Assembly: GCF_013032855.1 (NCBI RefSeq)
Contig: NZ_WQDA01000001.1
Location: 255,501-319,500 of the forward strand
DNA length: 64,000 bases
Direction of reading: 5' to 3'
Origin: Ruegeria arenilitoris
GTDB taxonomy: Bacteria > Pseudomonadota > Alphaproteobacteria > Rhodobacterales > Rhodobacteraceae
Of the stretch, positions 3,466-64,000 are shown piece after piece; positions within the stretch are counted from its first letter, which is position 1; each line of letters opens with the position of its first letter. Made by a program: the position numbers and the translations under genes. The notes under the pieces are model-generated. The model saw nothing but the letters and a program-made list of their open reading frames with translations, made no database searches and was not told the origin of the DNA.

Positions 3466-3527
3466 GGGGCGTGCTCCTTTGAGGGTCGTGATTAACGACG
3501 AGAGCCTGCCGCCTCAAGCGGATTTGC

Positions 3528-3551
3528 GGTTGGGGCATCGCTGCCCCAACC
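3528..3551 (-). other. Stem-loop between ribH2 and aroC
   Basis: A perfect 10-bp inverted repeat (GGTTGGGGCA / TGCCCCAACC) with a four-base loop. Read on the minus strand the loop is GCGA, a GNRA tetraloop. No T-run follows on either strand, so it is not a canonical intrinsic terminator. It could stabilise the ribH2 3' end or set the ribH2:aroC ratio. Confidence 0.6.
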
Positions 3552-3559
3552 CAGTGTGC

Positions 3560-4000
3560 TTAGGCAGCACGGGTCAGTGCGGCGCGGGTTTCGACGATTT
3601 TCAGCGCCGCCCGAGCTGCCTCGCGCCCCTTTTCCACGAAATGCGCGCGGTAGATGGCGTTGTGATGGTCGGTTTCCTGGTACTGGTGCGGCGTCAGCGA
3701 CACCGACAGGACCGGCACGCCGGTTTCCAGCCCCGCGCGCATCAGCCCGTCAACCACGGCCTGCGCCACGAAATCGTGCCGGTAGATGCCGCCATCGACG
3801 ACAAAAGCCGCGCAGGCCACGGCGGCATAGCGGCCCGTCCGGGCCAGGTCGCGGGCCAGCAGGGGCATTTCAAACGCGCCCGGCACGTCGAACACATCGA
3901 CCTGATCGGCGGGGATCAACTCCAGAAAACCGCCCAGCGCGCGGTCGACGATATCGGCATGCCAGTTGGCTTTGACGAAAGCATAGCGGGTGTGTGTCAT
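3560..4000 (-). CDS. ribH: 6,7-dimethyl-8-ribityllumazine synthase, type II (RibH2-like)
   Basis: Penultimate enzyme of riboflavin synthesis: it condenses 5-amino-6-ribitylamino-uracil with 3,4-dihydroxy-2-butanone 4-phosphate. The 146-residue protein resembles the shorter type II lumazine synthases known from alphaproteobacteria such as Brucella and Mesorhizobium. The VPGAFEMP substrate loop is near residues 40-46 and the catalytic-region ETDHHNAIYR near 108-117. ATG at 4000 is preceded by AAAGGAG. An FMN riboswitch aptamer lies in its leader at 4121-4269, so expression should fall when FMN is plentiful. The other rib genes are not adjacent. Confidence 0.93.
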   Translation of the reverse strand: MTHTRYAFVKANWHADIVDRALGGFLELIPADQVDVFDVPGAFEMPLLARDLARTGRYAAVACAAFVVDGGIYRHDFVAQAVVDGLMRAGLETGVPVLSVSLTPHQYQETDHHNAIYRAHFVEKGREAARAALKIVETRAALTRAA

Positions 4001-4075
4001 CGTGATCTCCTTTCAGCTTGGTGGCCTGCTGGCGGGTGCGAAGGGTTTCGCGGCCAGCGCGGCATGACACGTCAC

Positions 4076-4115
4076 CCAAGGCGATCACGGACAGACGCGC
4101 CCTTGGCGAGGCGCG
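4076..4115 (-). promoter_or_regulatory. Mutually exclusive hairpins, possible riboswitch expression platform
   Basis: Just downstream of the FMN aptamer two hairpins compete for the same bases. Hairpin 1 pairs 4110-4115 with 4096-4101 (CGCGCC/GGCGCG). Hairpin 2 pairs 4098-4106 with 4076-4083 (CCAAGGGCG/CGCCTTGG, one bulged base). Bases 4098-4101 are in both, so only one can form. Neither has a T-run, so if this is the switch it is not a simple intrinsic terminator. The role is inferred from position. Confidence 0.45.
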
Positions 4116-4120
4116 CTGCT

Positions 4121-4269
4121 CGTTCTCTTTCATCCGGACTTTAACCGTCGGCTCTGGCCTCTCACCAGATCTGCTGACACTCTGTCGGTTGAATGACAGA
4201 GCCGCTCGCGGGCTGGCGGGTCTGGGCCCGCATACCGCCGGTGGGGAATTCCGCCCCGCCCTGAGAACG
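4121..4269 (-). ncRNA. FMN riboswitch (RFN element) aptamer
   Basis: The minus-strand leader of ribH2 carries the conserved RFN core. The P1 helix pairs CGTTCTC (4263-4269) with GAGAACG (4121-4127). Inside it follow the conserved blocks GGAATTCCCCACCGGCGGTA, GCCCGCGAGC, a TCTGGTGAGAGGCCAGA hairpin, and GCCGACGGTTAAAGTCCGGA. The spacing and order match the known six-helix FMN aptamer. It should reduce ribH2 expression when FMN binds. Only 57 bases separate its 5' end from the start of the divergent flavin-binding gene at 4327. Confidence 0.95.
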
Positions 4270-4326
4270 GCGCGACCTTGCCAAGCGTGCGCGCGATCTG
4301 CAAGACCTGTCTGCAGGAGGACGGTC

Positions 4327-4941
4327 ATGCACCCCAACTCAGCCTTTCGCGCCGAGGACCGCGCGCGCCATGTGGAGTTTGCCCGCAGCCGGGGATTCGG
4401 CGTACTGGCGCTGTCGGTCGACGGCCCGCCATTGATCAGCCATGTGCCCTTTCTGCTGTCCGAGGATGGCGCGGTGGCCGAACTGCATCTGGTGCGTTCG
4501 AACCCGATCGTGCGGGCGCTGGCCAACCCGCAGGAGGCGCGGATCGCGGTTCAGGGGCCCGACGGCTATGTCTCGCCCGATTGGTACGGGGTCGCGGATC
4601 AGGTGCCCACATGGAACTATGTGGCGGTCCACCTGACAGGCCGGCTGGAATTGCAGCCCCAGGACCGGCTGCGCGATCTTCTGGATCGGCAATCGGCCTT
4701 TTTTGAGCAGCGGCTGCAACCCAAACCGCCCTGGCGCGCCGACAAGATGGACCCGGCGGCGCTGGAGCGCATGATGCGCATGATCGTGCCCTGCTGGATG
4801 CAGATCACTCAGATCGACGGCACCTGGAAACTGAACCAGAACAAGCCCGGGACGGCGCGGCTGGCCGCCGCCGAGAATGTCGAGCAGTCCGGGATCGGCA
4901 CCGAGCTTGGTCAACTGGCCGCCCTGATGCGGGACAGTTGA
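4327..4941 (+). CDS. PaiB-type FMN-binding protein
   Basis: A 204-residue protein of the PaiB/FMN-binding negative transcriptional regulator family, a split-barrel flavin-binding fold. Typical segments are HPNSAFRAED at the N-terminus, LISHVPFLL, GPDGYVSPDWY, VPTWNYVAVHLTGR and the C-terminal WKLNQNKP. Bacillus PaiB was described as a repressor of sporulation and protease genes; most homologues have no proven DNA-binding role, so the function here is open. ATG at 4327 is preceded by a perfect AGGAGG at 4315-4320. It diverges from ribH2 and its FMN riboswitch, which suggests a flavin-linked role. Confidence 0.85.
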   Translation: MHPNSAFRAEDRARHVEFARSRGFGVLALSVDGPPLISHVPFLLSEDGAVAELHLVRSNPIVRALANPQEARIAVQGPDGYVSPDWYGVADQVPTWNYVAVHLTGRLELQPQDRLRDLLDRQSAFFEQRLQPKPPWRADKMDPAALERMMRMIVPCWMQITQIDGTWKLNQNKPGTARLAAAENVEQSGIGTELGQLAALMRDS

Positions 4942-4958
4942 CCGGCGCCGGGTTGGGT

Positions 4959-5402
4959 TCAGTCGGTGAACGTGGCCAGATAGGCGGCGATATCCTCGGC
5001 ACCTGTCTTCAGCTTGACGCTCATGTTCGGGCGGGCGGTCTCGTCCTTCAGGAAGTCCTGGATGAACCCGATCGGGTCGCGGGCGTAGGCGGCAATATTC
5101 TCTTGCGTCCAGACCAGGCCGTTTTCACCGGCGCGGATCATGTCATCGGTGAACATGCCGATGGGCAGCCGTTCGCTGCCGTTCAGATAGTCGTTTTCGG
5201 TTCCGGCGGCCCTGCCGACCACACCATAGAGATTCGGGCCGGTGATGCCGCCTTTGATCAGAACCTCGCCATCCTTGATGATGGCGTGACAGGACGAGCA
5301 GCGGTTGTAGAGTTTCTCGCCGCGCGCTGCGTCGCCTTCGGCGGCGGCCTGGTGTGCGGCGGTGAACGCGAGCAGCAGAATGGCATTTTTTGACAAAGTC
5401 AT
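4959..5402 (-). CDS. Cytochrome c2-like c-type cytochrome
   Basis: A 147-residue periplasmic electron carrier with an N-terminal signal peptide ending near AAAEG and one haem-binding site CSSCH at about residues 35-39. The likely Met axial ligand is in ARPNMSVKL near the C-terminus. I chose ATG at 5402 because GAGGA precedes it; an in-frame ATG at 5414 has no ribosome site. It is a clear paralogue of the cytochrome at 53639-54052: both share the GGxTGPNLYG and GLVW blocks. It stands divergently from petABC across 473 bases, so it may take electrons from the bc1 complex. Confidence 0.9.
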   Translation of the reverse strand: MTLSKNAILLLAFTAAHQAAAEGDAARGEKLYNRCSSCHAIIKDGEVLIKGGITGPNLYGVVGRAAGTENDYLNGSERLPIGMFTDDMIRAGENGLVWTQENIAAYARDPIGFIQDFLKDETARPNMSVKLKTGAEDIAAYLATFTD

Positions 5403-5875
5403 TTGGGTCCTCATTCAGATCGGTCGCGCGCCCGCCGCCTTTGCTTGAAAAACCCCGGGGTCGCAACCGGGAAATTTATCGCGACGCAACTAAAAAAATG
5501 ATTTCAAAATAGATGTTTACATGGGTTTCGTGGTCCCGGAACCGCGCGGTCAGGTTGCTGTCGTATATGCCTCGTGCCGGGTACCCGAGTGAACAGGTGC
5601 TCGGCCGGGCCAGGGGCGATAGCCGTGGCGAAGGGTCAGAGAATCACCTGCGAAGTGATTCGCGCCTTCGAACGGCGATTTTCGCAACATCCGAGGAAGT
5701 TCTTGAAAAATGACCCCTTCATTGTGACATGAATGCCCAGATGCGGCGTAGTGCGCGCCTATGACCGCTGGACGAACCGATTTCCGCCAGCTAGATACCC
5801 GCGATGAGACGCCGCTTTGATGCGGTGCTGATGCATGTTTGCCCGTAGCCGGGCGCTGGAATCGGAGAAAACCTC
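5403..5875. other. Divergent intergenic region between cytochrome c and petA
   Basis: About 470 bases without a convincing gene on either strand. It holds an A/T-rich patch at about 5490-5520, likely promoter DNA for one or both sides. It also holds a perfect 7-bp inverted repeat GAATCAC/GTGATTC at 5641-5661 with a seven-base spacer, which could be an operator. I could not fix start points for either transcript. Confidence 0.5.
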
Positions 5876-6436
5876 GTGTCCCACGCAGAAGACCACGAAG
5901 GCACCCGCAGAGATTTCCTCTACTACGCCGCCGGCGGCGCAGGTGTCGTTGCAACGGGAGCCGCCGTGTGGCCCCTGGTCAACCAAATGAACCCCTCGGC
6001 AGACGTTCAGGCGCTGTCCTCGATCCGCGTGGACGTCAGCGGCGTCGAGATTGGCACCCAGATCACGGTCAAGTGGCTGGGCAAGCCCGTCTTCATTCGT
6101 CGCCGTACCGAAGAAGAGATCAACTGGGGCCGCGAAGTGCCGCTGGAGGATCTGCCGGATCAGAACGACCGGAACGAAAACAAGCCGAACCTGCCCGCGA
6201 CCGATGAAAACCGGACGCTGGACGAAGCCGGCGAATGGCTGGTGATGATGGGCGTCTGCACCCATCTGGGCTGCGTTCCTCTGGGCGACGGCGCTGGTGA
6301 TTTTCACGGGTGGTTCTGCCCGTGCCACGGATCGCACTACGATACGGCGGGCCGTATCCGCAAAGGTCCCGCTCCGGAAAACCTGCATATCCCGGTCGCC
6401 GAGTTCCTCGACGAAACCACCATCAAGCTGGGTTAA
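5876..6436 (+). CDS. petA: Rieske iron-sulfur subunit of cytochrome bc1
   Basis: Ubiquinol-cytochrome c reductase iron-sulfur subunit, 186 residues. It carries electrons from ubiquinol to cytochrome c1 on the periplasmic face. A twin-arginine motif (TRRDFLYY) precedes the single N-terminal membrane helix at about residues 15-35, as in other Tat-exported Rieske proteins. The [2Fe-2S] ligands are in CTHLGC and CPCHGSHYD. The start is GTG at 5876 with GGAGAAA just upstream. First gene of petABC, with 12 bases to petB. Confidence 0.97.
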
Positions 6437-6448
6437 GGAGACGCGCTC

Positions 6449-7780
6449 ATGTCCGGTATCCCGCACGATCACTATGAACCGAAGACCAACGGCGAGAAGT
6501 GGCTGAACAGCCGTCTGCCCATCGTCGGCCTTCTATACGACACTTTGATGATCCCCACCCCGAAGAACCTGAACTGGATGTGGATCTGGGGCATCGTCCT
6601 GACCTTCTGCCTGGCGTTGCAGATCGTCACCGGCATCGTTCTAGTGATGCACTATACCCCGCATGTCGATCTGGCCTTTGCCAGCGTCGAGCACATCATG
6701 CGCAACGTAAACGGCGGCTACATGCTGCGGTACCTGCACATGAACGGCGCGTCGCTGTTCTTCGTGGCGGTCTATATCCACATCTTCCGCGGCCTGTTCT
6801 ACGGTTCGTACAAGGCGCCGCGCGAAGTGACCTGGATCATCGGCATGCTGATCTACCTGATGATGATGGGCACCGCCTTCATGGGTTATGTTCTGCCTTG
6901 GGGTCAGATGTCCTTCTGGGGCGCCACCGTGATCACCGGCCTGTTCGGCGCGATCCCCTTCGTGGGCGAAGCGATCCAGACCTGGCTGCTGGGCGGACCG
7001 GCCGTCGACAACGCGACGCTGAACCGCTTCTTCTCGCTGCACTATCTGCTGCCCTTCATCATCGCAGGGCTGGTCATCGTGCATATCTGGGCCTTCCACA
7101 CCACCGGCAACAACAACCCCACGGGTGTTGAAGTTCGCCGCACGTCGAAAGCCGAGGCCGAGAAAGACACGCTGCCATTCTGGCCCTATTTCGTGATCAA
7201 GGACCTGTTCGCGCTGGCCGTCATCCTGGTCGTGTTCTGGGCAATCGTCGGCTTCATGCCGAACTACCTGGGCCACCCGGACAACTACATCGAAGCCAAC
7301 CCGCTGGTCACGCCCGCGCACATCGTGCCTGAATGGTACTTCCTGCCGTTCTACGCGATCCTACGTGCCTTCACCAGCGAAGTCTGGGTCGTGCAGTTCG
7401 CCAGCTTCATCACCGGTGGCATCATCGACGCCAAGTTCTTTGGTGTTCTGGCGATGTTCGGTGCAATCCTGGCAATGGCGCTGGCGCCTTGGCTGGACAC
7501 TTCGACCGTGCGTTCGGGCAAGTACCGCCCGATGTTCAAATGGTGGTTCTACCTTCTGGTCATCGACTTCTTTGCCCTGATGTGGCTGGGTGCGATGCCG
7601 GCGGAAGAGCCCTATGCGACCTTCTCGCTGATCGCGTCCGCCTACTGGTTCGCTTATTTCTTCGTGATCCTGCCGATCCTGGGTGTCATCGAAAAGCCCG
7701 ATGCCCAGCCGGAAACCATCGAAGAAGACTTCAACGCGCATTATGGCAAGGCTGACGCCGACGCCACGCCGGCCGAGTAA
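6449..7780 (+). CDS. petB: Cytochrome b subunit of the bc1 complex
   Basis: The 443-residue di-haem cytochrome b, with eight or more membrane helices. It oxidises quinol at the Qo site and re-reduces quinone at the Qi site. Visible hallmarks are the paired haem histidines (HMNGAS...[31 protein letters not shown]), the [14 protein letters not shown] segment of the cd helix and the Qo motif PEWYF. The 443-residue length with an extended C-terminus is usual for Rhodobacter-type proteins. Second gene of petABC. Confidence 0.98.
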
Positions 7781-7798
7781 GAAGAGGGACCGGAAACC

Positions 7799-8584
7799 AT
7801 GTTCAAGAAACTTGCAATCGGTGCCGCGTTTGCCATCGCCCTTGCTCCTGCTGCGGTATCCGCAGCCGGAGGCGGCGAGCAGCATATCGAGGACTTCGAC
7901 TTCTCGTTCGAAGGGCCCTTTGGCGCTTACGATCAGAACCAGCTTCAGCGCGGCCTGCAGATCTATACCGAGGTTTGCGCGGCCTGCCACGGTCTGAAAT
8001 ACGTACCGCTGCGCGACCTCACGGCGCTGGGCTACTCGGAAGAAGAAGTCATCGCTTATGCCGCCGGCTCGTTCGAGGTGTTCGATCCCGAGCTGGACGA
8101 TTTCCGCCCGGCCAGGCCGACCGATCACTTCCCGGCCAATGATGCCGTGGGCGCACCTGACCTGAGCCTGATGGCCAAGGCGCGTGCAGGCTTCCACGGC
8201 CCCTACGGTCTGGGGATCAACCAGCTGGTCAAAGGCATGGGTGGCGCTGAATACATCGCCTCGCTGCTGGACGGCTATACCGGCAAGGAAAAAGAAGAGG
8301 CCGGCACGATCCTGTACGAAAACACCGCCTTCCCGGGCGGCTGGATTTCGATGGGCCCGCCGTTGTCTGACGAACAGGTCGAGTTTGCCGACGGACACGA
8401 AAACACCGTCGAGGCCATGTCCCAGGACGTCGCTGCGTTCCTGATGTGGGCCGCCGAACCAAAAATGATGGATCGCAAGGCCTCGGGCTTTGTCGGGGTT
8501 CTGTTCCTGACCATCATGTCGGTGCTTCTCTACCTGGTGAACAAGCGTCTGTGGGCGCCGGTCAAAGGCAAAAAGTCGGTTTGA
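7799..8584 (+). CDS. petC: Cytochrome c1 subunit of the bc1 complex
   Basis: A 261-residue membrane-anchored c-type cytochrome that passes electrons from the Rieske centre to soluble cytochrome c. It has a cleavable signal peptide (to about residue 22, AVSA|AGGG), the haem site CAACH at about residues 60-64, and a C-terminal helix ([16 protein letters not shown]) followed by a basic tail. The axial Met region is [10 protein letters not shown]. It ends the petABC operon and is followed by a strong intrinsic terminator. Confidence 0.97.
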
Positions 8585-8613
8585 CCTGAGCGTCGCCTGC
8601 AAAAGCAAGACAA

Positions 8614-8645
8614 CCCCGCGCATGGCGCGGGGTTTTTTCTTTTTG
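8614..8645 (+). terminator. Intrinsic terminator of petABC
   Basis: A perfect 8-bp stem CCCCGCGC/GCGCGGGG with an ATG loop (8614-8632) is followed by TTTTTTCTTTTT. It lies 29 bases after the petC stop, a textbook Rho-independent terminator. Confidence 0.95.
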
Positions 8646-8747
8646 CGGTCGGAAACCCGCCGAACCGGGCATCAGCGCGGGCTTATTCACGGCTTTTAAG
8701 CGGAATGCGCATGGCGCCGGCGGTGTCGGCTGCTCAGGTTTTCGACA

Positions 8748-8766
8748 GCGTCAGGCGGTCTGACGC
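8748..8766. promoter_or_regulatory. Perfect dyad upstream of the PepSY/b561/LuxR module
   Basis: GCGTCAG and CTGACGC flank a five-base spacer GCGGT, just ahead of the ribosome site of the PepSY gene. It is a candidate operator, perhaps for the LuxR-type protein encoded at the end of the same operon, or an mRNA hairpin. Nothing in the sequence proves binding. Confidence 0.4.
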
Positions 8767-8791
8767 AGGATCGAAACCGAGGAGACCCGAC

Positions 8792-9043
8792 ATGAAACTA
8801 CCCATACTTGCAGCGGCGTTGCTTGTGGCCACTCCGGTTCTGGCTCTGGACCTGGTGCCGGATACGGAACTGGGCAAGACAGAGACCGAGGTGCGCACCG
8901 CTCTGACCGAGCTTGGCTATGACGTGCGCAAGATCGAAATGGAGGACGGTGAAATCGAGGCCTATGTCGTGAAAGACGGACAGATGGCCGAGGTCTATGT
9001 GGACCCCGCGTCCGGCAAGATCCAAAAGATCGAGGACAAGTGA
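8792..9043 (+). CDS. PepSY-domain periplasmic protein
   Basis: An 83-residue exported protein: signal peptide MKLPILAAALLVATPVLA, then one PepSY-like domain (LGKTETEVRTALTELGYDV...IEAYVVKDGQMAEVYVDPASGKI). PepSY domains are often found with membrane cytochromes or sensor proteins and are thought to inhibit or assist a partner; the role here is unknown. ATG at 8792 follows GAGGAG (8779-8784). The cytochrome b561 gene starts six bases after its stop and the membrane LuxR gene overlaps that one, so the three form a unit. A perfect dyad lies at 8748-8766. Confidence 0.85.
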   Translation: MKLPILAAALLVATPVLALDLVPDTELGKTETEVRTALTELGYDVRKIEMEDGEIEAYVVKDGQMAEVYVDPASGKIQKIEDK

Positions 9044-56892: not shown

Positions 56893-57744
56893 TCAGGCTG
56901 TTGGCACGTCGATATTGTCGATCAGGCGCACGCCCTCCAGCCAGGCGGTGGCGAACAGGCGCGCGGGGCGGGTGGCGGCGGTCAGCGGCGCAAGCGTTTC
57001 GGCGCAGCGCAGGTCGATATATTCCACCTCGGAAAAGCCCGCCGCCAGCAGCGTGTCGCGAGCCGGCCCCTTCAGATCCGCGAATGCGGCCCCCTGCGCC
57101 AGTTGCCCGGCCATGTCCTGCATCACCGCATGCATCCGCGCCCCGGTCACCAGCCCCTGGTCCGACAAGCGCAGATTGCGCGAGGACATCGCCAGCCCCG
57201 AGGGCTCGCGCACGGTGGGGCAGCCGATCACCTCGATCGGGATGTCCAGATCGCGGGCCATGCGGCGCACGACCATCAACTGCTGATAGTCTTTTTCGCC
57301 GAAATAGGCCCTGTCTGCCTGCGTCTGCAGGAACAGTTTTGCCACGACGGTTGCCACGCCGTCGAAATGTCCAGCGCGGAATTCGCCCTCCATCACGTCG
57401 GTCAGCCCGGCGACGGACACGGTGGTGGCGAACCCGTCTGGATAGATCTGGTCCGGGTCGGGGACATAGATCGCATCAACCCCCAGCGGTGCCAGCTTGG
57501 CCGCGTCGTCCTGCTCGGTGCGGGGGTACTTGGCCAGATCCTCGGGGTTGTTGAACTGTTTGGGGTTGACGAAGATCGTCACGATCACGCGGTCGCAATC
57601 GGCCCGCGCCGCCTGTGCCAGCGACAGGTGCCCCTGATGCAGCGCGCCCATGGTGGGCACCACGCCGATGGTCTGGCCCGCCCGGCGCCAGGCCCGGGTC
57701 TTGGCGCGTAGCTCCGAAAGGGTGCGCAGGATGGGCGCGGTCAT
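56893..57744 (-). CDS. panC: Pantothenate synthetase
   Basis: Joins pantoate and beta-alanine with ATP to give pantothenate, the precursor of coenzyme A. 283 residues. The nucleotide-binding [17 protein letters not shown] (HIGH-like) is near the N-terminus and MSSRNLRLS (KMSKS-like) near residue 185. Its start overlaps the panB stop by four bases. Confidence 0.96.
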
Positions 57745-58580
57745 GCCTTGCCCCCCTTGGCGGGCGCCTGATCGGCAAACACATGCTCGGCCGCGGGGAA
57801 GGTGCGGGCGCGCACCTCGGCGGCGTATTCGGCGATGGCGGCCTCGGCCAGCGGGCCCAGATCGGCATAGCGTTTGACGAATTTCGGTTTGAAGGCGGTG
57901 AAAAAGCCCAGCATGTCATCGACCACCAGGATCTGACCGTCACAGCCCGCCGAGGCGCCGATGCCGATGGTGGGGATGGGCACCTCGGCGGTGATCCGGT
58001 CGGCCAGACCCTGCGGAACCTTCTCGAGCACGACCGAAAACGCCCCGGCCTCGGCCACGGCGCGGGCGTCGGCCAGCACCGCATCGGCCTGTTCGTCGCG
58101 GCCCTGCACCTTATAGCCGCCCAGCGTGTTGATCGATTGCGGCGTCAGACCCACATGCGCCATCACCGGGATGCCGCGCTTGACCAGAAAGCGGATCGTC
58201 TCGGCCATCTCGACCCCGCCCTCCAGCTTGACCGCGCCGGCGCCGGTCTCGGCCATCAGCCGGGCCGCGTTGCGGAAGGCCTGCGCAGGGCTTTCTTCAT
58301 AGCTGGCAAAGGGCATGTCGATGACCATCATCGCCGTCTCCAGCCCGCGCGCCACGGCCTGCCCGTGCAAGATCATCATCTCCATCGTCACGCCCAGGGT
58401 CGAGCTCAGCCCATGCAGCACCATGCCGACACTGTCGCCCACCAGGACGAAGTCGCAATGGGGGTCCATCAGCCGGGCCATCGGCGTGGTATAGGCGGTC
58501 AGGCTGACCAGCGGATCGTCCCCTTTGCGGGCGCGGATATCCTCGGCATTCGGGGCTGTCTTGCGGGCGGTGGCGCTCAT
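57741..58580 (-). CDS. panB: 3-methyl-2-oxobutanoate hydroxymethyltransferase
   Basis: Makes ketopantoate from 2-oxoisovalerate and methylene-tetrahydrofolate, first step of pantothenate synthesis. 279 residues. Key blocks: [48 protein letters not shown], and [21 protein letters not shown]. First gene of the panBC pair; it diverges from the ABC binding-protein gene over 171 bases. Confidence 0.96.
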
Positions 58581-58751
58581 GCTCGCTCCTCGCGGGGTTC
58601 ATGTTGCAGCGCGGCATAGCAGATCGGCAGGGGCCAGAGAAACCCCGGTTGCGCGAACATTTCCTTGAATGACCCAAGGTTTGCAGGGACATTGATTCCG
58701 TCTGGGCCGCGTCATCCGCCGCCCATCCGCACATTCTGGGAGGGAATTTAC

Positions 58752-60239
58752 ATGACCAAGCCGTTCTTTCGCACCTTTGCCGGCGCCATGGCGCTGGGCG
58801 TGGGGCTTCTCGCCTCGCAGGCCATGGCCCGGTCGGACATCACAATCGCCATGCAGCTGGAGCCGCCGCATCTGGACCCGACCAGCGCCGCCGCACAAGC
58901 CATCGATTCGGTCGTCTACACCAACGTGTTCGAAGGGCTGACCCGGTTCATGGGCGATGGCTCGGTCGTGCCGGGGCTGGCCGAAAGCTGGGAGATTTCC
59001 GAGGACGGAAAGGTCTATACCTTCACGCTGCACGATGGCGTCACCTTTCACGATGGCACCACGATGGATGCCGAGGACGTGAAGTTCAGCCTCGACCGCG
59101 CCACCGCCGAGGACAGCGCCAATGCGCAGAAGGCCCTGTTCGCCGGGATCGAAAGCGTTGAGGTCGTGGACCCGCTGACCGTCAGAATCACTCTGGCGGA
59201 ACCCAACGGCAATTTTCTGTTCAACCTGGCCTGGGGCGACGCGGTGATCGTGGCGCCCGAAAGCATCGAGGGCATCAAGACCAACCCGGTGGGCACCGGT
59301 GCCTACAAGTTCGCCGAATGGGTCCAGGGCGACCGCATCACCTTGGAGCGCAACCCGGACTACTGGGGCGATCAACCCGCGCTGGAGAAAGCCACGTTCA
59401 AGTTCATCTCGGACCCCACCGCCGCCTTCGCCGCGATGATGGCCGAGGACGTGGACGTGTTCGACTATTTCCCCGCCCCCGAGAACCTGCCGCAGTTCGA
59501 GGCCGACCCGCGATTCCAGGTGCTCGTCGGTTCGACCGAGGGCGAGACCATTCTGGCGACCAACAACAAGAAGCCGCCCTTTGACGACGTGCAGGTGCGG
59601 CAGGCGCTGGCCCATGCGATCGACCGTCAAGCGATTATCGACGGCGCGATGTTCGGCTATGGCACGCCGATCGGCACGCATTTCGCACCGCACAACCCGG
59701 CCTATGTCGATCTGACCGGCAATTCGGCGCATGACCCGGACAAGGCCCGCGCCCTGCTGGCCGAGGCCGGGTTCGCAGACGGGTTCGAAACTACGCTGCA
59801 CCTGCCGCCGCCCTCCTACGCCCGCCGCGGGGGCGAGATCGTGGCCGCGCAGCTGGCCGAGGTCGGGATCAAGGCCGAGATCATCAACGTGGAATGGGCG
59901 CAGTGGCTGGAAACCGTGTTCAAGGGCAAGGATTTCGCCCTGACCATCGTCAGCCATACCGAGCCGATGGACATCGGCATCTATGCCCGGCCGGATTACT
60001 ACTTCCAATATGACAACCCGGACTTCCAGGCCCTGATGGCGACGCTGAACGCCACCACCGACCCCGATGAACGCACCCGCCTTATGGGTGAGGCGCAGCG
60101 CATGATCGCCGAGGATTACGTCAACGCCTATCTGTTCCAACTTGCCAAACTGGGCGTGGCCAAGGCCGGGGTTAAGGGCCTGTGGGAAAACGCGCCCACG
60201 GCGGCCATCGACCTGACCGCGATCAGCTGGGCGGAATGA
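58752..60239 (+). CDS. ABC transporter substrate-binding protein, family 5 (peptide/nickel type)
   Basis: A 495-residue periplasmic binding protein with a signal peptide ending LASQAMA. Family 5 landmarks: TNVFEGLTRFMGDGSVVPGLAESWEISEDGKVYTFTLHDGVTFHDG, VKFSLDRA, GTGAYKFAEWVQGDRITLERNPDYWG, VRQALAHAIDRQAIIDGAM. Ligand unknown; peptides, glycosides, opines or nickel are possible. It opens an operon with a channel-like gene, two permeases and a fused ATPase. Confidence 0.92.
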   Translation: MTKPFFRTFAGAMALGVGLLASQAMARSDITIAMQLEPPHLDPTSAAAQAIDSVVYTNVFEGLTRFMGDGSVVPGLAESWEISEDGKVYTFTLHDGVTFHDGTTMDAEDVKFSLDRATAEDSANAQKALFAGIESVEVVDPLTVRITLAEPNGNFLFNLAWGDAVIVAPESIEGIKTNPVGTGAYKFAEWVQGDRITLERNPDYWGDQPALEKATFKFISDPTAAFAAMMAEDVDVFDYFPAPENLPQFEADPRFQVLVGSTEGETILATNNKKPPFDDVQVRQALAHAIDRQAIIDGAMFGYGTPIGTHFAPHNPAYVDLTGNSAHDPDKARALLAEAGFADGFETTLHLPPPSYARRGGEIVAAQLAEVGIKAEIINVEWAQWLETVFKGKDFALTIVSHTEPMDIGIYARPDYYFQYDNPDFQALMATLNATTDPDERTRLMGEAQRMIAEDYVNAYLFQLAKLGVAKAGVKGLWENAPTAAIDLTAISWAE

Positions 60240-60246
60240 GCCTTGC

Positions 60247-60270
60247 GGGTCCGCACTGCGGACCTGTTTC
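60247..60270 (+). other. Stem-loop between binding-protein and channel genes
   Basis: GGTCCGC/GCGGACC with an ACT loop (60248-60264), followed by TGTTTC. Such loops often protect the 3' end of a binding-protein message or cause partial termination, which keeps downstream genes at lower level. T-run too weak for a firm terminator call. Confidence 0.45.
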
Positions 60271-60292
60271 CCCAGATTAGGGTCTGTTTCAG

Positions 60293-61354
60293 ATGACACG
60301 TTGCCTTGTTTCGGTGTTTTTCTTCATGGTCGCCCTGGCCCTGTCGGGGCCCTCGGGCGCGCAGGGGTTGTTTCAGGATGGCCACAGCGCGCTGTTGGGC
60401 ACCCCGGAAAACCCGGTCGAGGTCGGCGTCGGCATCAAGATCGACCAGATCACCTCGGTCGATCAGAAGGCCGAGAATTATGGCGCCGTGGTCGTGCTGC
60501 GCTTTGAATGGAGCGATCCGGCCCTGGCATTCGATCCGGATGAGCTGGGCCGCGATTTCCGCGTATTCGATCCGCCGGCCTTCGTACGCCATGCGGCCGC
60601 ACGGGATGCGGTGGTTCCCGCCTTTGTCATCCACAACCAGCAGTCCAACCGCTGGGTGCACGAATCCGCGGCCGCCCTGCGCTATGATGGGCATGTGACG
60701 TTTGTCGAGAAATCCTCGCTGACGCTGCAGGCGCCGCATTTCAACTTCCTCAGGTTCCCCTTCGACACGCAGGAGTTCCACTTCGAGGTCGTCTCGGTCT
60801 TTCCGTCCGACTTCGTGCACTACTACGCGCTGGACCAGTTCTCGGGGCTGGGCGACACGCTGGGCGAAGAGGAGTGGATTTTGGGCAATGCCCGTATGCT
60901 GGCCTCGACCACGACCGGCCTGTCGGGCAACGAAAGCGATCAGGTGTCACTGGTCTTTCAGGGCAAGCGCCACCTGACCTACTATGTCATCCGGGTGTTC
61001 CTGCCGATGCTGGTGCTGGTTCTGGTCGGCTGGGCGCTGTTCTTTCTGGACGAATACCGCAAGCGGATCGACATCGCCGGGGCCAACCTGCTGGTCTTTG
61101 TCGCCTTCAACTGGGCAATCTCGGCCGATCTGCCCAAGCTGGGCTATCTGACCTTTCTGGATTTCATCCTGCAATGCATGTTCCTGATGACCGGGGCGCT
61201 GGTGGTGTTCAACGTGATGCTGCGGCGGCTCAAGGTCTCGGGGCGCGAGGACACGGCGCGCAAGCTGGACAACTACGCGATCAAGTGGATTTATCCGCTG
61301 GGCTATGCCGCGATCGTGGGCTACGCGGTCTGGGCGTTTCTGATGCAGTCCTGA
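60293..61354 (+). CDS. Pentameric ligand-gated ion channel (Cys-loop receptor-like) homologue
   Basis: A 353-residue protein with signal peptide (residues 1-24), an extracellular beta-sandwich of about 200 residues and four membrane helices near 230-252, 259-279, 287-310 and 332-350. Channel-family marks in the right order: WSDPALAF (72-80, the WxD motif of loop D), RYDGHVTFVEK, FPFDTQEFHFEV (155-166), the TM1 proline in VFLPMLVLV, and LPKLGYLTFLD after TM2. It lacks the disulfide of the animal Cys-loop, as bacterial members do. It lies inside a peptide-type ABC transporter operon. Ligand and ion preference cannot be read. Confidence 0.85.
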   Translation: MTRCLVSVFFFMVALALSGPSGAQGLFQDGHSALLGTPENPVEVGVGIKIDQITSVDQKAENYGAVVVLRFEWSDPALAFDPDELGRDFRVFDPPAFVRHAAARDAVVPAFVIHNQQSNRWVHESAAALRYDGHVTFVEKSSLTLQAPHFNFLRFPFDTQEFHFEVVSVFPSDFVHYYALDQFSGLGDTLGEEEWILGNARMLASTTTGLSGNESDQVSLVFQGKRHLTYYVIRVFLPMLVLVLVGWALFFLDEYRKRIDIAGANLLVFVAFNWAISADLPKLGYLTFLDFILQCMFLMTGALVVFNVMLRRLKVSGREDTARKLDNYAIKWIYPLGYAAIVGYAVWAFLMQS

Positions 61355-61403
61355 CGCGCTGTGCCGCTGGACCGGCGGCCAATCCCGGCCTAACGTGGCG
61401 GCA

Positions 61404-62351
61404 ATGCTCCGATATGCGCTCAAACGTCTGATTTCGCTGGCACTCAGCCTTGCCGTCGCTTCGGTGGTCATCTTCGCGGTGATCGAGGTGGCACCGGGGG
61501 ATCCGGCCTCGTTCATGCTGGGGGTGAACGCCCAGCCCGAAACGCTGGCCGCCCTGCGCGCCGAACTGGGCTTGGACGTGTCACGGCCGCAGCGCTACCT
61601 GAACTGGGTCAGCGGTATGCTGGCCGGAGATTTCGGCACGTCGTACACCTATCGCACGCCGGTGGCGCAGATGGTGGCCGACCGGCTGTGGGTGTCGCTG
61701 CCGCTGGCGCTCTATGCGCTGACACTGTCGACGCTGATCGCCTTTCCGGTCGGTATCTACGCCGCCGCGCGTCGGGGGAAACCGGGCGATCTGGCGGTAA
61801 TGGGGGCCACGCAGCTGGGCATCGCGGTGCCGAATTTCTGGTTTGCGATGATGCTGGTGCTGATCTTCGCCATCAACCTGCGCTGGTTCAACGCGGGCGG
61901 GTTCGCGGGGTGGGACAACGGCCTGTGGGCCGGGCTGCACTCGCTGACCTTGCCGGCGATTGCGCTGGCTCTGCCACAGGCGGCGATTCTGTCGCGGGTC
62001 ATGCGCTCGGCACTGCTGGACATTCTGGGTGAGGATTTTATGCGCACCGCCCGCGCCAAGGGCCTGTCGCGCCGTCAGGCGCTGTGGCGGCACGGGGTGC
62101 GCAACGCGCTGATCCCGGTGTTGACCATCATCGGGCTGCAGTTTTCCTTCCTGCTGGCCGGATCGATCATCATAGAGCAGGTCTTCTATCTGCCCGGGTT
62201 GGGGCGGCTGGTGTTCCAGGCGATCTCGGCGCGGGACCTGATCGTGGTGGAGTCGGTGGTGATGCTGCTGGTCTTTGCGGTCATCACGGTGAATTTCCTG
62301 GTCGATCTGGCCTATGCCGCGGTCGACCCCCGGTTGCGGAGCCGCACATGA
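61404..62351 (+). CDS. ABC transporter permease (DppB type)
   Basis: A 315-residue inner-membrane permease of the DppB/OppB type, six helices. The N-terminus LRYALKRLISLALSLAVASVVIFAVIEVAPGDPA is typical. The EAA-like coupling motif is DFMRTARAKGLSRRQALWRHGVRNALIP near residue 210. I chose ATG 61404; a GTG three codons earlier is possible. Overlaps the next permease by four bases. Confidence 0.93.
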   Translation: MLRYALKRLISLALSLAVASVVIFAVIEVAPGDPASFMLGVNAQPETLAALRAELGLDVSRPQRYLNWVSGMLAGDFGTSYTYRTPVAQMVADRLWVSLPLALYALTLSTLIAFPVGIYAAARRGKPGDLAVMGATQLGIAVPNFWFAMMLVLIFAINLRWFNAGGFAGWDNGLWAGLHSLTLPAIALALPQAAILSRVMRSALLDILGEDFMRTARAKGLSRRQALWRHGVRNALIPVLTIIGLQFSFLLAGSIIIEQVFYLPGLGRLVFQAISARDLIVVESVVMLLVFAVITVNFLVDLAYAAVDPRLRSRT

Positions 62352-63163
62352 GCCGGTCTCTGATTCTGGGGGCGGGGCTGTCCTCGGTGGTGGTGCTGAT
62401 GGCGCTGCTGTCCTTCGTCTGGACACCCTATGACCACGCCGCGCTGAACATCCCCGACAAATTGCAGCCGCCCAATGCGCAGCACTGGTTCGGTACCGAT
62501 CATTTCGGGCGCGACATGTTCTCGATGATCATGGTGGGTGCGCGCACCTCGATCGCCGTTGCGTTGGTGGCTGTGGGCATCGGCATGGGGTTCGGCGTGC
62601 CGCTGGGGCTGACGGCCGCGGCGCGCAAGGGGTCGTGGCTGGACGAGCTGATCATGCGCGGCAACGATCTGGTCTTTGCCTTCCCCTCGCTGGTCATCGC
62701 CATCCTGATCACCGCCGTCTTCGGCCCTGGTGCGGTGAACGCGATCATCGCCATCGGCATCTTCAACATCCCCGTCTTCGCCCGCATCACCCGCGGCGCG
62801 GCCCTGTCCCTGTGGGAGCGCGAGTTCATCCTGGCCGCCCGTGTGGCGGGCAAGGGCGCGGCGCGGATTTCGGCCGAGCACATCCTGCCCAACGTCGCCA
62901 ATTTGCTGATCGTGCAGGGCACCATCCAGTTCAGCCTTGGTATTCTGGCCGAAGCGGGGCTGTCCTATGTCGGCCTCGGTGCGCAGCCACCCACGCCCAG
63001 CTGGGGCCGGATGCTGGCGGATGCGCAGACGATGGTCAGTTTTGCCCCGCATTTGGCTCTGATTCCGGGGCTGGCGATCATCGTGACGGTGCTGGGGCTG
63101 AACCTGCTGGGCGACGGGCTGCGCGATTGGCTTGACCCTCGCATCCGGGTGGCCCGCGCATGA
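62348..63163 (+). CDS. ABC transporter permease (DppC type)
   Basis: A 271-residue permease of the DppC/OppC type. HWFGTDHFGRDMFSMIMVGARTS is the family hallmark, and the coupling motif is EFILAARVAGKGAARISAEHILPN. About six helices. Overlaps both neighbours by four bases. Confidence 0.94.
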   Translation: MSRSLILGAGLSSVVVLMALLSFVWTPYDHAALNIPDKLQPPNAQHWFGTDHFGRDMFSMIMVGARTSIAVALVAVGIGMGFGVPLGLTAAARKGSWLDELIMRGNDLVFAFPSLVIAILITAVFGPGAVNAIIAIGIFNIPVFARITRGAALSLWEREFILAARVAGKGAARISAEHILPNVANLLIVQGTIQFSLGILAEAGLSYVGLGAQPPTPSWGRMLADAQTMVSFAPHLALIPGLAIIVTVLGLNLLGDGLRDWLDPRIRVARA

Positions 63164-64000
63164 GCCTGCTGGAAATCCATAACCTGTCGCTGTCGATCCA
63201 CGGGGTCCCTGTTCTGGACCAGGTCAGCCTGTCCATCGACCCCGGGCAGATCGTGGCCGTCACCGGTGAGAGCGGCTCGGGCAAGTCGATGTCGGCACTG
63301 GCGGTGATGCAGTTGCTGCCCGCAGGGGCCGTGGCCAGCGGCTCGGTCCGCCTTGACGGGCACGAGGTTCTGAATAGCCCCGAGGACGAGATGTGCCGCC
63401 TGCGCGGCGCGGTCGTCGGGATGGTGTTCCAGGAGCCGATGACAGCGCTCAATCCGGTGAAGACCATCGGTGATCAGGTGATGGAGACCATCCTGATCCA
63501 CAAGGCCATGCCCCCTGACGCCGCCCGCACGCGCGCCCAAGAGGTTCTGACCCGCGTCGGCCTGCCGCCCGACCGCTTTCCCCTGTCGCGCTATCCGCAC
63601 GAACTTTCGGGCGGGCAACGGCAGCGTGTGGTGATCGCCATGGCCATCGCGCTGCGTCCCCGGCTGCTGATCGCGGACGAGCCGACAACTGCGCTGGACG
63701 TGACCACGCAGGCGCAGATCCTCGATCTGCTGCGAGGGCTGGTCACGGAATACGGCATGGGCCTGCTGATGATCACCCACGATCTGGCGGTGGTGGCCGA
63801 CATGGCCGACCGGGTCGTGGTGATGCAGAAGGGGCGGGTGGTCGAAACCGGGGCCACCGACCACCTGCTGCGCCACATGCAGCACCCCTATACGCGGATG
63901 CTGTTTCAGGCCTCGGGCCACCGGGTCGCATTGCCTGCGCCGCCTGCGCCCGCGCCGCTGCTCGAGGTCCGCGACGTGGTGCGCGACTATCGCCTGCCGC
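63160..64000 (+). CDS. ABC transporter ATP-binding protein, DppD-DppF fusion (partial)
   Basis: Begins ATG 63160 in a 4-base overlap with the permease and runs off the window. The first ATPase module is complete: Walker [10 protein letters not shown]-loop [10 protein letters not shown], signature LSGGQRQR, Walker [14 protein letters not shown]-loop [11 protein letters not shown]. After a proline-rich linker (LPAPPAPAP) a second module starts ([14 protein letters not shown]), so this is a fused double ATPase as in many alphaproteobacterial peptide transporters. Confidence 0.93.

Follow-up and report, generated by a model that had tools for sequence, protein, structure and literature searches.

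Two solved channels stand closest to the protein considered here. DeCLIC is inhibited by Ca2+, which binds between E347 and E479/E480, close to E481 (accessible text of PMC9897478), while sTeLIC is termed alkaline-pH-gated in the titles of its PDB entries and has a vestibule that accommodates bromocinnamate and bromoamphetamine (excerpted text of PMC11988449). The physiology of bacterial pentameric ligand-gated ion channels (pLGICs) is poorly characterized, a wording used of DeCLIC in the accessible part of PMC12664993. With regard to gene organization, Tasneem et al. (2004/5) reported that some pLGIC genes of bacteria share predicted operons with PBP-II or Cache genes, and they suggested that the pLGICs and the PBP-II/Cache proteins cooperate as chemoreceptors (PMC549065, available in part). 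Our search of the CC-licensed literature found no paper on a pLGIC in importer operons of Ruegeria, and operons or gene neighbors were unmentioned in a word search of PMC4795631.

The locus analyzed here lies in a window of 64,000 nucleotides from the marine bacterium Ruegeria arenilitoris (contig NZ_WQDA01000001.1 of assembly GCF_013032855.1), in which a pLGIC gene is situated between the genes for the solute-binding protein (SBP) and the first permease of an ABC importer. It resembles the operons of Tasneem et al. in that a pLGIC gene is found beside a gene for a periplasmic binding protein, but the PBP-II genes in the accessible part of that report stand alone, whereas the Ruegeria gene is part of a complete importer cluster, at a site whose occupant varies between species (PMC549065). 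A first-pass annotation of this DNA had suggested that channel and SBP share a ligand, or that the SBP delivers it, and had stated that no system of this kind was known to have been described. The latter statement leaves the operons listed above out of account; because Tasneem et al. had proposed such a cooperation, the idea of an SBP-channel coupling is therefore not new (PMC549065).

Results

Identity and predicted fold of the channel

The open reading frame from position 60293 to 61354 (plus strand; 353 amino acids) matches the Neur_chan_LBD profile PF02931 with an E-value of 4.1e-12 (46.4 bits; cut-off 26). Searches against solved pLGIC chains returned sTeLIC (6fl9) with an E-value of 6.9e-76 and the DeCLIC-type chains 9ftg/6v4a with about 1e-68, while GLIC followed at 2e-22 and weaker; judged by these E-values and not by a tree, the protein is closer to sTeLIC and DeCLIC (7e-76 to 1e-68) than to GLIC (2e-22). 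All motifs that had been named in the first-pass annotation could be located: W73-S-D75, FPFDTQ at residues 155-160, LPKLGYLTFLD at residues 280-290, and the M1 proline P238. An AlphaFold single-chain model (mean pLDDT 78.4, pTM 0.65) contains the strands of the beta-sandwich and four predicted transmembrane helices (residues 228-251, 255-277, 285-315, and 319-351), and hence the fold that had been expected for a pLGIC. The best 50 fold matches listed for this model are pLGICs throughout, with sTeLIC at the top (Foldseek E-value of 4.1e-33 for sTeLIC; VIA-align Z-score of 27.6 over 306 residues at 2.9 A) and DeCLIC in second place. In an alignment of 60 channel rows (59 of them distinct, as close strains are included; the far relative L031 and the frame-broken L029/L082 are omitted), P156 and D158 of the Pro-loop are kept in every row. 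In a separate set of 25 rows, P238 is invariant (25 of 25).

Across 18 loci the median dN/dS ratio of the channel gene is 0.110, against 0.043-0.087 for five neighboring genes; these are rough values, as the median dS of 0.84-1.34 is near saturation. The channel gene is thus under purifying selection, and since this is joined by 60 aligned homologs (59 distinct), a chance open reading frame is excluded. By family and fold, the gene encodes a genuine pLGIC of the sTeLIC/DeCLIC clade, and thus a relative of the neurotransmitter receptor channels of animals, and its product can be expected to form a pentamer. With the window protein as query, the channel gives the only match in the 3.82-Mb source genome, and it is 99% identical to its counterpart in Ruegeria intermedia DSM 29341. 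None of the ten pattern matches in a scan of viral sequences encodes a relative of the channel.

The channel shares about 40% sequence identity with sTeLIC (PDB 6fl9, 9ewa), the closest relative in both sequence and fold, and 33-36% with DeCLIC (PDB 6v4a, 7q3g, 9ftg). Its core begins at about residue 40 of 353, so that the extra N-terminal domain of DeCLIC, which consists of two lobes, is absent, as it is from sTeLIC. According to the alignment, sTeLIC and the Ruegeria channel have an acidic 2' residue and the EEE of loop F in common, whereas W75 in the sTeLIC vestibule corresponds to V108 in an ungapped alignment (sTeLIC residue from the excerpted text of PMC11988449).

The four glutamates at or near the Ca2+ site of DeCLIC, E347, E479, E480, and E481, align with E61, E192, E193, and E194 of the channel, and these are kept in 60, 60, 60, and 59 of the 60 rows, respectively, copies at other genomic homes included. 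A putative acidic, inter-subunit Ca2+ site of the DeCLIC type is consequently conserved, and it predicts that the channel responds to Ca2+. The 2' position of the pore, whose numbering we take from the AFN motif of GLIC, is occupied by D or E in all 60 rows. Such an acidic 2' ring points to cation selectivity, and homology to DeCLIC and sTeLIC suggests that gating would depend on Ca2+ and/or pH.

The importer genes and the conserved gene order

The channel gene is preceded by a gene for a family 5 SBP (positions 58752 to 60239, plus strand; 495 amino acids with a signal peptide recognized by eye; PF00496, E-value of 9.6e-98 in a scan from an earlier start codon). On the same strand it is followed by the genes for a permease of the DppB/GsiC/NikB type (PermB; 61404 to 62351; PF00528, 1.7e-38, scanned from the GTG at 61395), a second permease (PermC; 62348 to 63163; PF00528, 3.1e-33, scanned from an earlier start codon), and a two-domain ABC ATPase (PF00005) that starts at 63160 and runs past the window end at 64000; in full, it comprises 532 amino acids (L021:10161-11759). 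With one SBP_bac_5 protein, two BPD_transp_1 permeases, and an ATPase, the importer has the composition of the peptide/nickel type. In these components it is like the Dpp/Gsi/Nik peptide/nickel/opine-type operons, from which the Ruegeria cluster differs in that the gene run closes, beyond the window, with an aldehyde dehydrogenase gene. The SBP matches GsiB, NikA, DppA, and others among the NCBIfam models, all far under the cut-off; SBP and permeases alike stay below every specific NCBIfam cut-off, and comparisons with PDB entries likewise do not decide the importer substrate. Divergently oriented panB-panC-like genes (56893 to 58580, minus strand; named by eye), whose homologs are placed likewise in most channel loci, border the cluster upstream and lie outside the system.

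A genome scan for relatives of the channel yielded 44 loci (L039-L082). The order SBP-channel-permease, for which the first-pass annotation had suggested a neighborhood survey, recurs in this set: in 43 of the 44 loci, which stem from several genera, the SBP gene lies directly upstream of the channel gene and the PermB gene downstream of it. The sole exception (L080) is a 3.2-kb contig with neither SBP nor PermB. Two further genomes of the family, represented by L239 and L240, also carry a channel in this importer position. Additional genes are present in four loci from two genera. In one Ruegeria locus (L040, the same strain as L022), about 6.5 kb with sarcosine-oxidase-like genes (annotated by eye; one is a DAO-family oxidoreductase) separate channel and PermB, while three Leisingera loci have a histone-deacetylase-like gene on the minus strand at this place (PF00850, one tested). 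All of these insertions are found between channel and PermB and none between SBP and channel, as expected if the SBP-channel pair matters. In Jhaorihella thermophila (L029/L082), the channel at this site falls into two reading frames, which cover residues 11-229 and 211-350, and looks either broken or mis-sequenced.

The site between SBP and PermB is variable

The importer is far more widespread than the channel. Among 198 genomes of the family, the SBP was found in 119 (E-value of at most 1e-160) and the channel in 17 (E-value of at most 1e-5); ten of these 17 belong to the clade studied here, and eight of the ten have the channel between SBP and PermB, one of them in the frame-broken form. 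Over 385 genomes of the class, PF02931 detected channels in four. Within the genus Ruegeria the channel is present in 38 of 54 genomes, and the SBP is kept in all 16 others, in one of them only partly. The slot between SBP and PermB is filled in nine of these 16 by the gene for an unrelated secreted protein of 339 amino acids and in four by an SH3-like gene on the minus strand (SH3_3 by Pfam in the one of the four that was tested); it is empty in two, and one genome has a truncated SBP. Across the SBP tree (FastTree), channel-less strains turn up in scattered places.

Four pairs of strains that differ in their slot occupant were aligned, including two pairs with the channel; homology breaks off no more than 2 nt from the SBP stop codon and restarts at the PermB start or up to about 42 nt before it. 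The 60 SBP places from the family, a non-random choice from the ranked list of the 119 genomes, comprise 21 in which SBP and PermB are adjacent, 20 with a gap of at least 250 bp, which was scored as occupied without each gene being identified, and 19 with no PermB downstream (contig end in two). Tannase and cyclase genes (Pfam) as well as cupin-like and histone-deacetylase-like genes (by eye) are other occupants in the family. The search for channel remnants in short or empty slots gave a best match with an E-value of 0.025 only. The gap between SBP and PermB is a swap site.

The 339-amino-acid protein (e.g., positions 3008-4027 of L113), which takes the place of the channel in nine of the 54 Ruegeria genomes, had been labeled Sel1-like by eye; Pfam finds no family, and we dropped this label. 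It occurs in the slot of no channel genome. Outside the slot, the channel genome G233 has a homolog of 60% identity and the channel genome G247 a weak match of 28%; in the family, G073 has a homolog of 56% identity and G193 a weak match of 26%. Channel and 339-amino-acid protein are thus mutually exclusive in the slot, not in the genome. Our search of a defence library gave no match to the channel, the 339-amino-acid protein, or the SH3-like protein.

Predicted transcription signals

A GC-rich hairpin with a stem of 10 pairs (60245 to 60267, plus strand; z-score of -3.4) begins 5 nt past the SBP stop codon. For the 48-nt stretch that starts at the SBP stop, the median fold z-score over 46 channel loci is -3.18, and 40 of the 46 lie below -1.5; none of the corresponding 48-nt stretches from the channel stop does so. 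These 46 loci leave out the repeat strains L022, L026, L029, and L039, the off-slot loci L028 and L080, and L023.

The sequence CTGGAC-N17-CTAACGT (61367 to 61396, plus strand) is located 7 nt before the ATG of PermB. Its generalized form YTRGAC-N16/17-YTAACST, a pattern drawn up after the sequences had been seen, is present 6-7 nt before the PermB ATG in 41 of the 46 channel loci, or in 41 of 47 if L023 is counted, which lacks it and shares 87-92% DNA identity with L070 and L071. The element also precedes PermB in 12 of 15 other Ruegeria slots (7/9 with the 339-amino-acid gene, 3/4 with the SH3-like gene, and 2/2 empty) and in 11 of 20 other occupied loci, and in none of the 21 loci in which SBP and PermB are adjacent. 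These counts total 64, which are all matches in the scanned loci (1.42 Mb, both strands). A slightly stricter pattern has one match in the source genome, and its reversed-pattern control has two. Since a scan of positions 58400 to 61600 for consensus sigma-70 sequences found no promoter, it is only the position of the element and its near-fixed spacing that lead us to name it promoter-like.

Co-transcription of the channel gene with the SBP gene is plausible. The permease genes, which in most loci are preceded by the promoter-like element, would there have a predicted separate start. A different arrangement is found in the Tropicibacter-type loci L023, L069, L070, and L071, which have only 10 nt between the channel stop codon and the permease ATG and lack the element; these look like a single operon.

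Sister channels at other genomic positions

Sister channels with 41-50% identity have other genomic homes. The order typA-channel-alaS is found in five genomes (L028, L235-L238), four genomes have the channel beside a gene of the cysteine-desulfurase type (L241-L243 and the decayed L030), and in one the channel gene adjoins an MFS gene (L233); the typA, alaS, aminotransferase-V family, and MFS assignments rest on Pfam searches of one example each, and the suf-like cluster was recognized by eye. In none of these ten off-slot stretches did tblastn (E-value of at most 1e-5) detect a homolog of the SBP. The slot copies are at least 53% identical to each other and closer to one another than to the off-slot sisters. 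Being a more distant set, the sisters are no proof that the slot copies are independent of the SBP.

The channel tree and the importer tree reject each other in both directions (AU test, p < 1e-38; 17 taxa, IQ-TREE). Single importer genes, used as a control, reject the tree of the remaining ones too, though less strongly (p from 5e-5 to 0.04; differences in log-likelihood of 21-54, against 159 for the channel); the control trees were made with FastTree and those of the main test with IQ-TREE, and divergence is greater in the channel than in the importer genes. The copy L030 (G007:C15), which lies beside the suf-like cluster, is decayed with internal stop codons, and its counterparts in three congeners (L241-L243) are intact.

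Discussion

Since the same site is empty or occupied by unrelated genes in related species, the position of the channel gene is not enough to show that channel and importer cooperate. A conserved order with a binding-protein gene may arise at a variable insertion site and does not have to imply that a ligand is shared. At a rough probability of 55%, we read the gene as that of a self-contained cation channel of the sTeLIC/DeCLIC clade that is cargo in a swap-prone importer slot and does not need a ligand of the SBP. Facing the periplasm, this channel would act alone, conduct cations, and sense one or more of divalent ions, pH, and small amphipathic molecules. The channel gene would ride in a commoner importer, where it separates SBP and permease genes, and would probably be read at a reduced level from the SBP promoter, through the hairpin, while the permease-ATPase-aldehyde dehydrogenase genes would mostly start on their own.

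The coupling that the first-pass annotation had put forward, in which an importer substrate, concentrated or passed on by the SBP, opens the channel and thereby creates an uptake-linked ion signal, found no support: the occupants of the slot are swapped, sister channels do without an SBP homolog nearby, and for the most part the permeases have their own promoter-like element. Furthermore, the importer usually occurs without the channel, and in most loci the unit is interrupted by the hairpin and the promoter-like element. For the Ruegeria lineage, the slot comparison amounts to a test of coupling as envisaged by Tasneem et al., and it goes mostly, not wholly, against it. Three observations speak for a coupled pair: SBP and channel keep their order in 43 of 44 loci, the insertions spare this junction, and L023 and L069-L071 look like one operon. 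Because the binding-protein or Cache neighbors of distant pLGIC genes described below fit the theme of PBP-II/Cache neighbors in Tasneem et al. (PMC549065, in its available part), we continue to regard a coupled pair as doubtful and not as dismissed.

This theme can be followed in twelve distant pLGIC loci whose neighbors we read (L031-L036, L038, L234, and L244-L247; 22-29% identity where measured). A binding-protein or Cache gene is near the channel gene in four of the twelve, a count that has no random-gene control. In L247 (G657; positions 389-2658), a dCache_3 gene directly precedes the pLGIC gene on the same strand, and in L234 an SBP_bac_3 gene lies within three genes of it. The pLGIC gene of L034 (G180:C57; 27% identity) directly follows a TAXI-type TRAP transporter (NMT1_3 and DctM) and is about 5 kb downstream of orthologous PermB-PermC-ATPase genes. 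In L246 (G639; positions 3503-9013), a pLGIC gene (25% identity) adjoins a Phosphonate-bd gene, which is followed by a hybrid histidine kinase gene, all on one strand; L246 is a better candidate for a channel coupled to a binding protein than the Ruegeria channel. The genome G1049 has two distant pLGIC genes at separate loci (L244, L245).

Less probable still is a modular accessory site, at which the channel and the 339-amino-acid and SH3-like proteins would be alternative envelope partners of the transporter that are swapped by recombination. Channel and two unrelated envelope proteins would then be interchangeable, each acting on a periplasmic state on which the importer depends, and the channel might, for example, clamp the membrane potential or report divalent ions upon induction of the importer. 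The shared position with its clean junctions, the signal-like N-termini (by eye), and the absence of the 339-amino-acid protein from the slot of channel genomes are in keeping with this idea, but the SH3-like gene is on the opposite strand, empty slots occur, and the tannase, cyclase, and minus-strand histone-deacetylase-like genes in other slots have no common theme. In addition, the Ruegeria genome G233 and the genome G073 carry the channel together with a homolog of the 339-amino-acid protein elsewhere (60% and 56% identity, respectively). Neutral or selfish cargo, tolerated after a highly expressed SBP gene and kept by drift, would account for the variable slot, for one frame-broken slot copy (L029/L082) and one decayed off-slot copy (G007), and for a channel dN/dS that is the highest of six genes compared, but is very improbable with this ratio still at just 0.11 and the channel retained in 38 of 54 genomes.

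The channel-less sister species in which SBP and PermB are kept at the site provide natural comparisons for the physiology of bacterial pLGICs. With respect to the importer, the histone-deacetylase-like genes and the aldehyde dehydrogenase might hint at its substrate. The dehydrogenase has matches of the aminobutyraldehyde-dehydrogenase type, all below the cut-off; a polyamine, the substrate considered from these hints, found no support in our literature search and was set aside. A minus-strand histone-deacetylase-like gene is situated directly before PermB in several genera (L066, L067, L072, L135, L141, L157, and L159; Pfam on L072 only).
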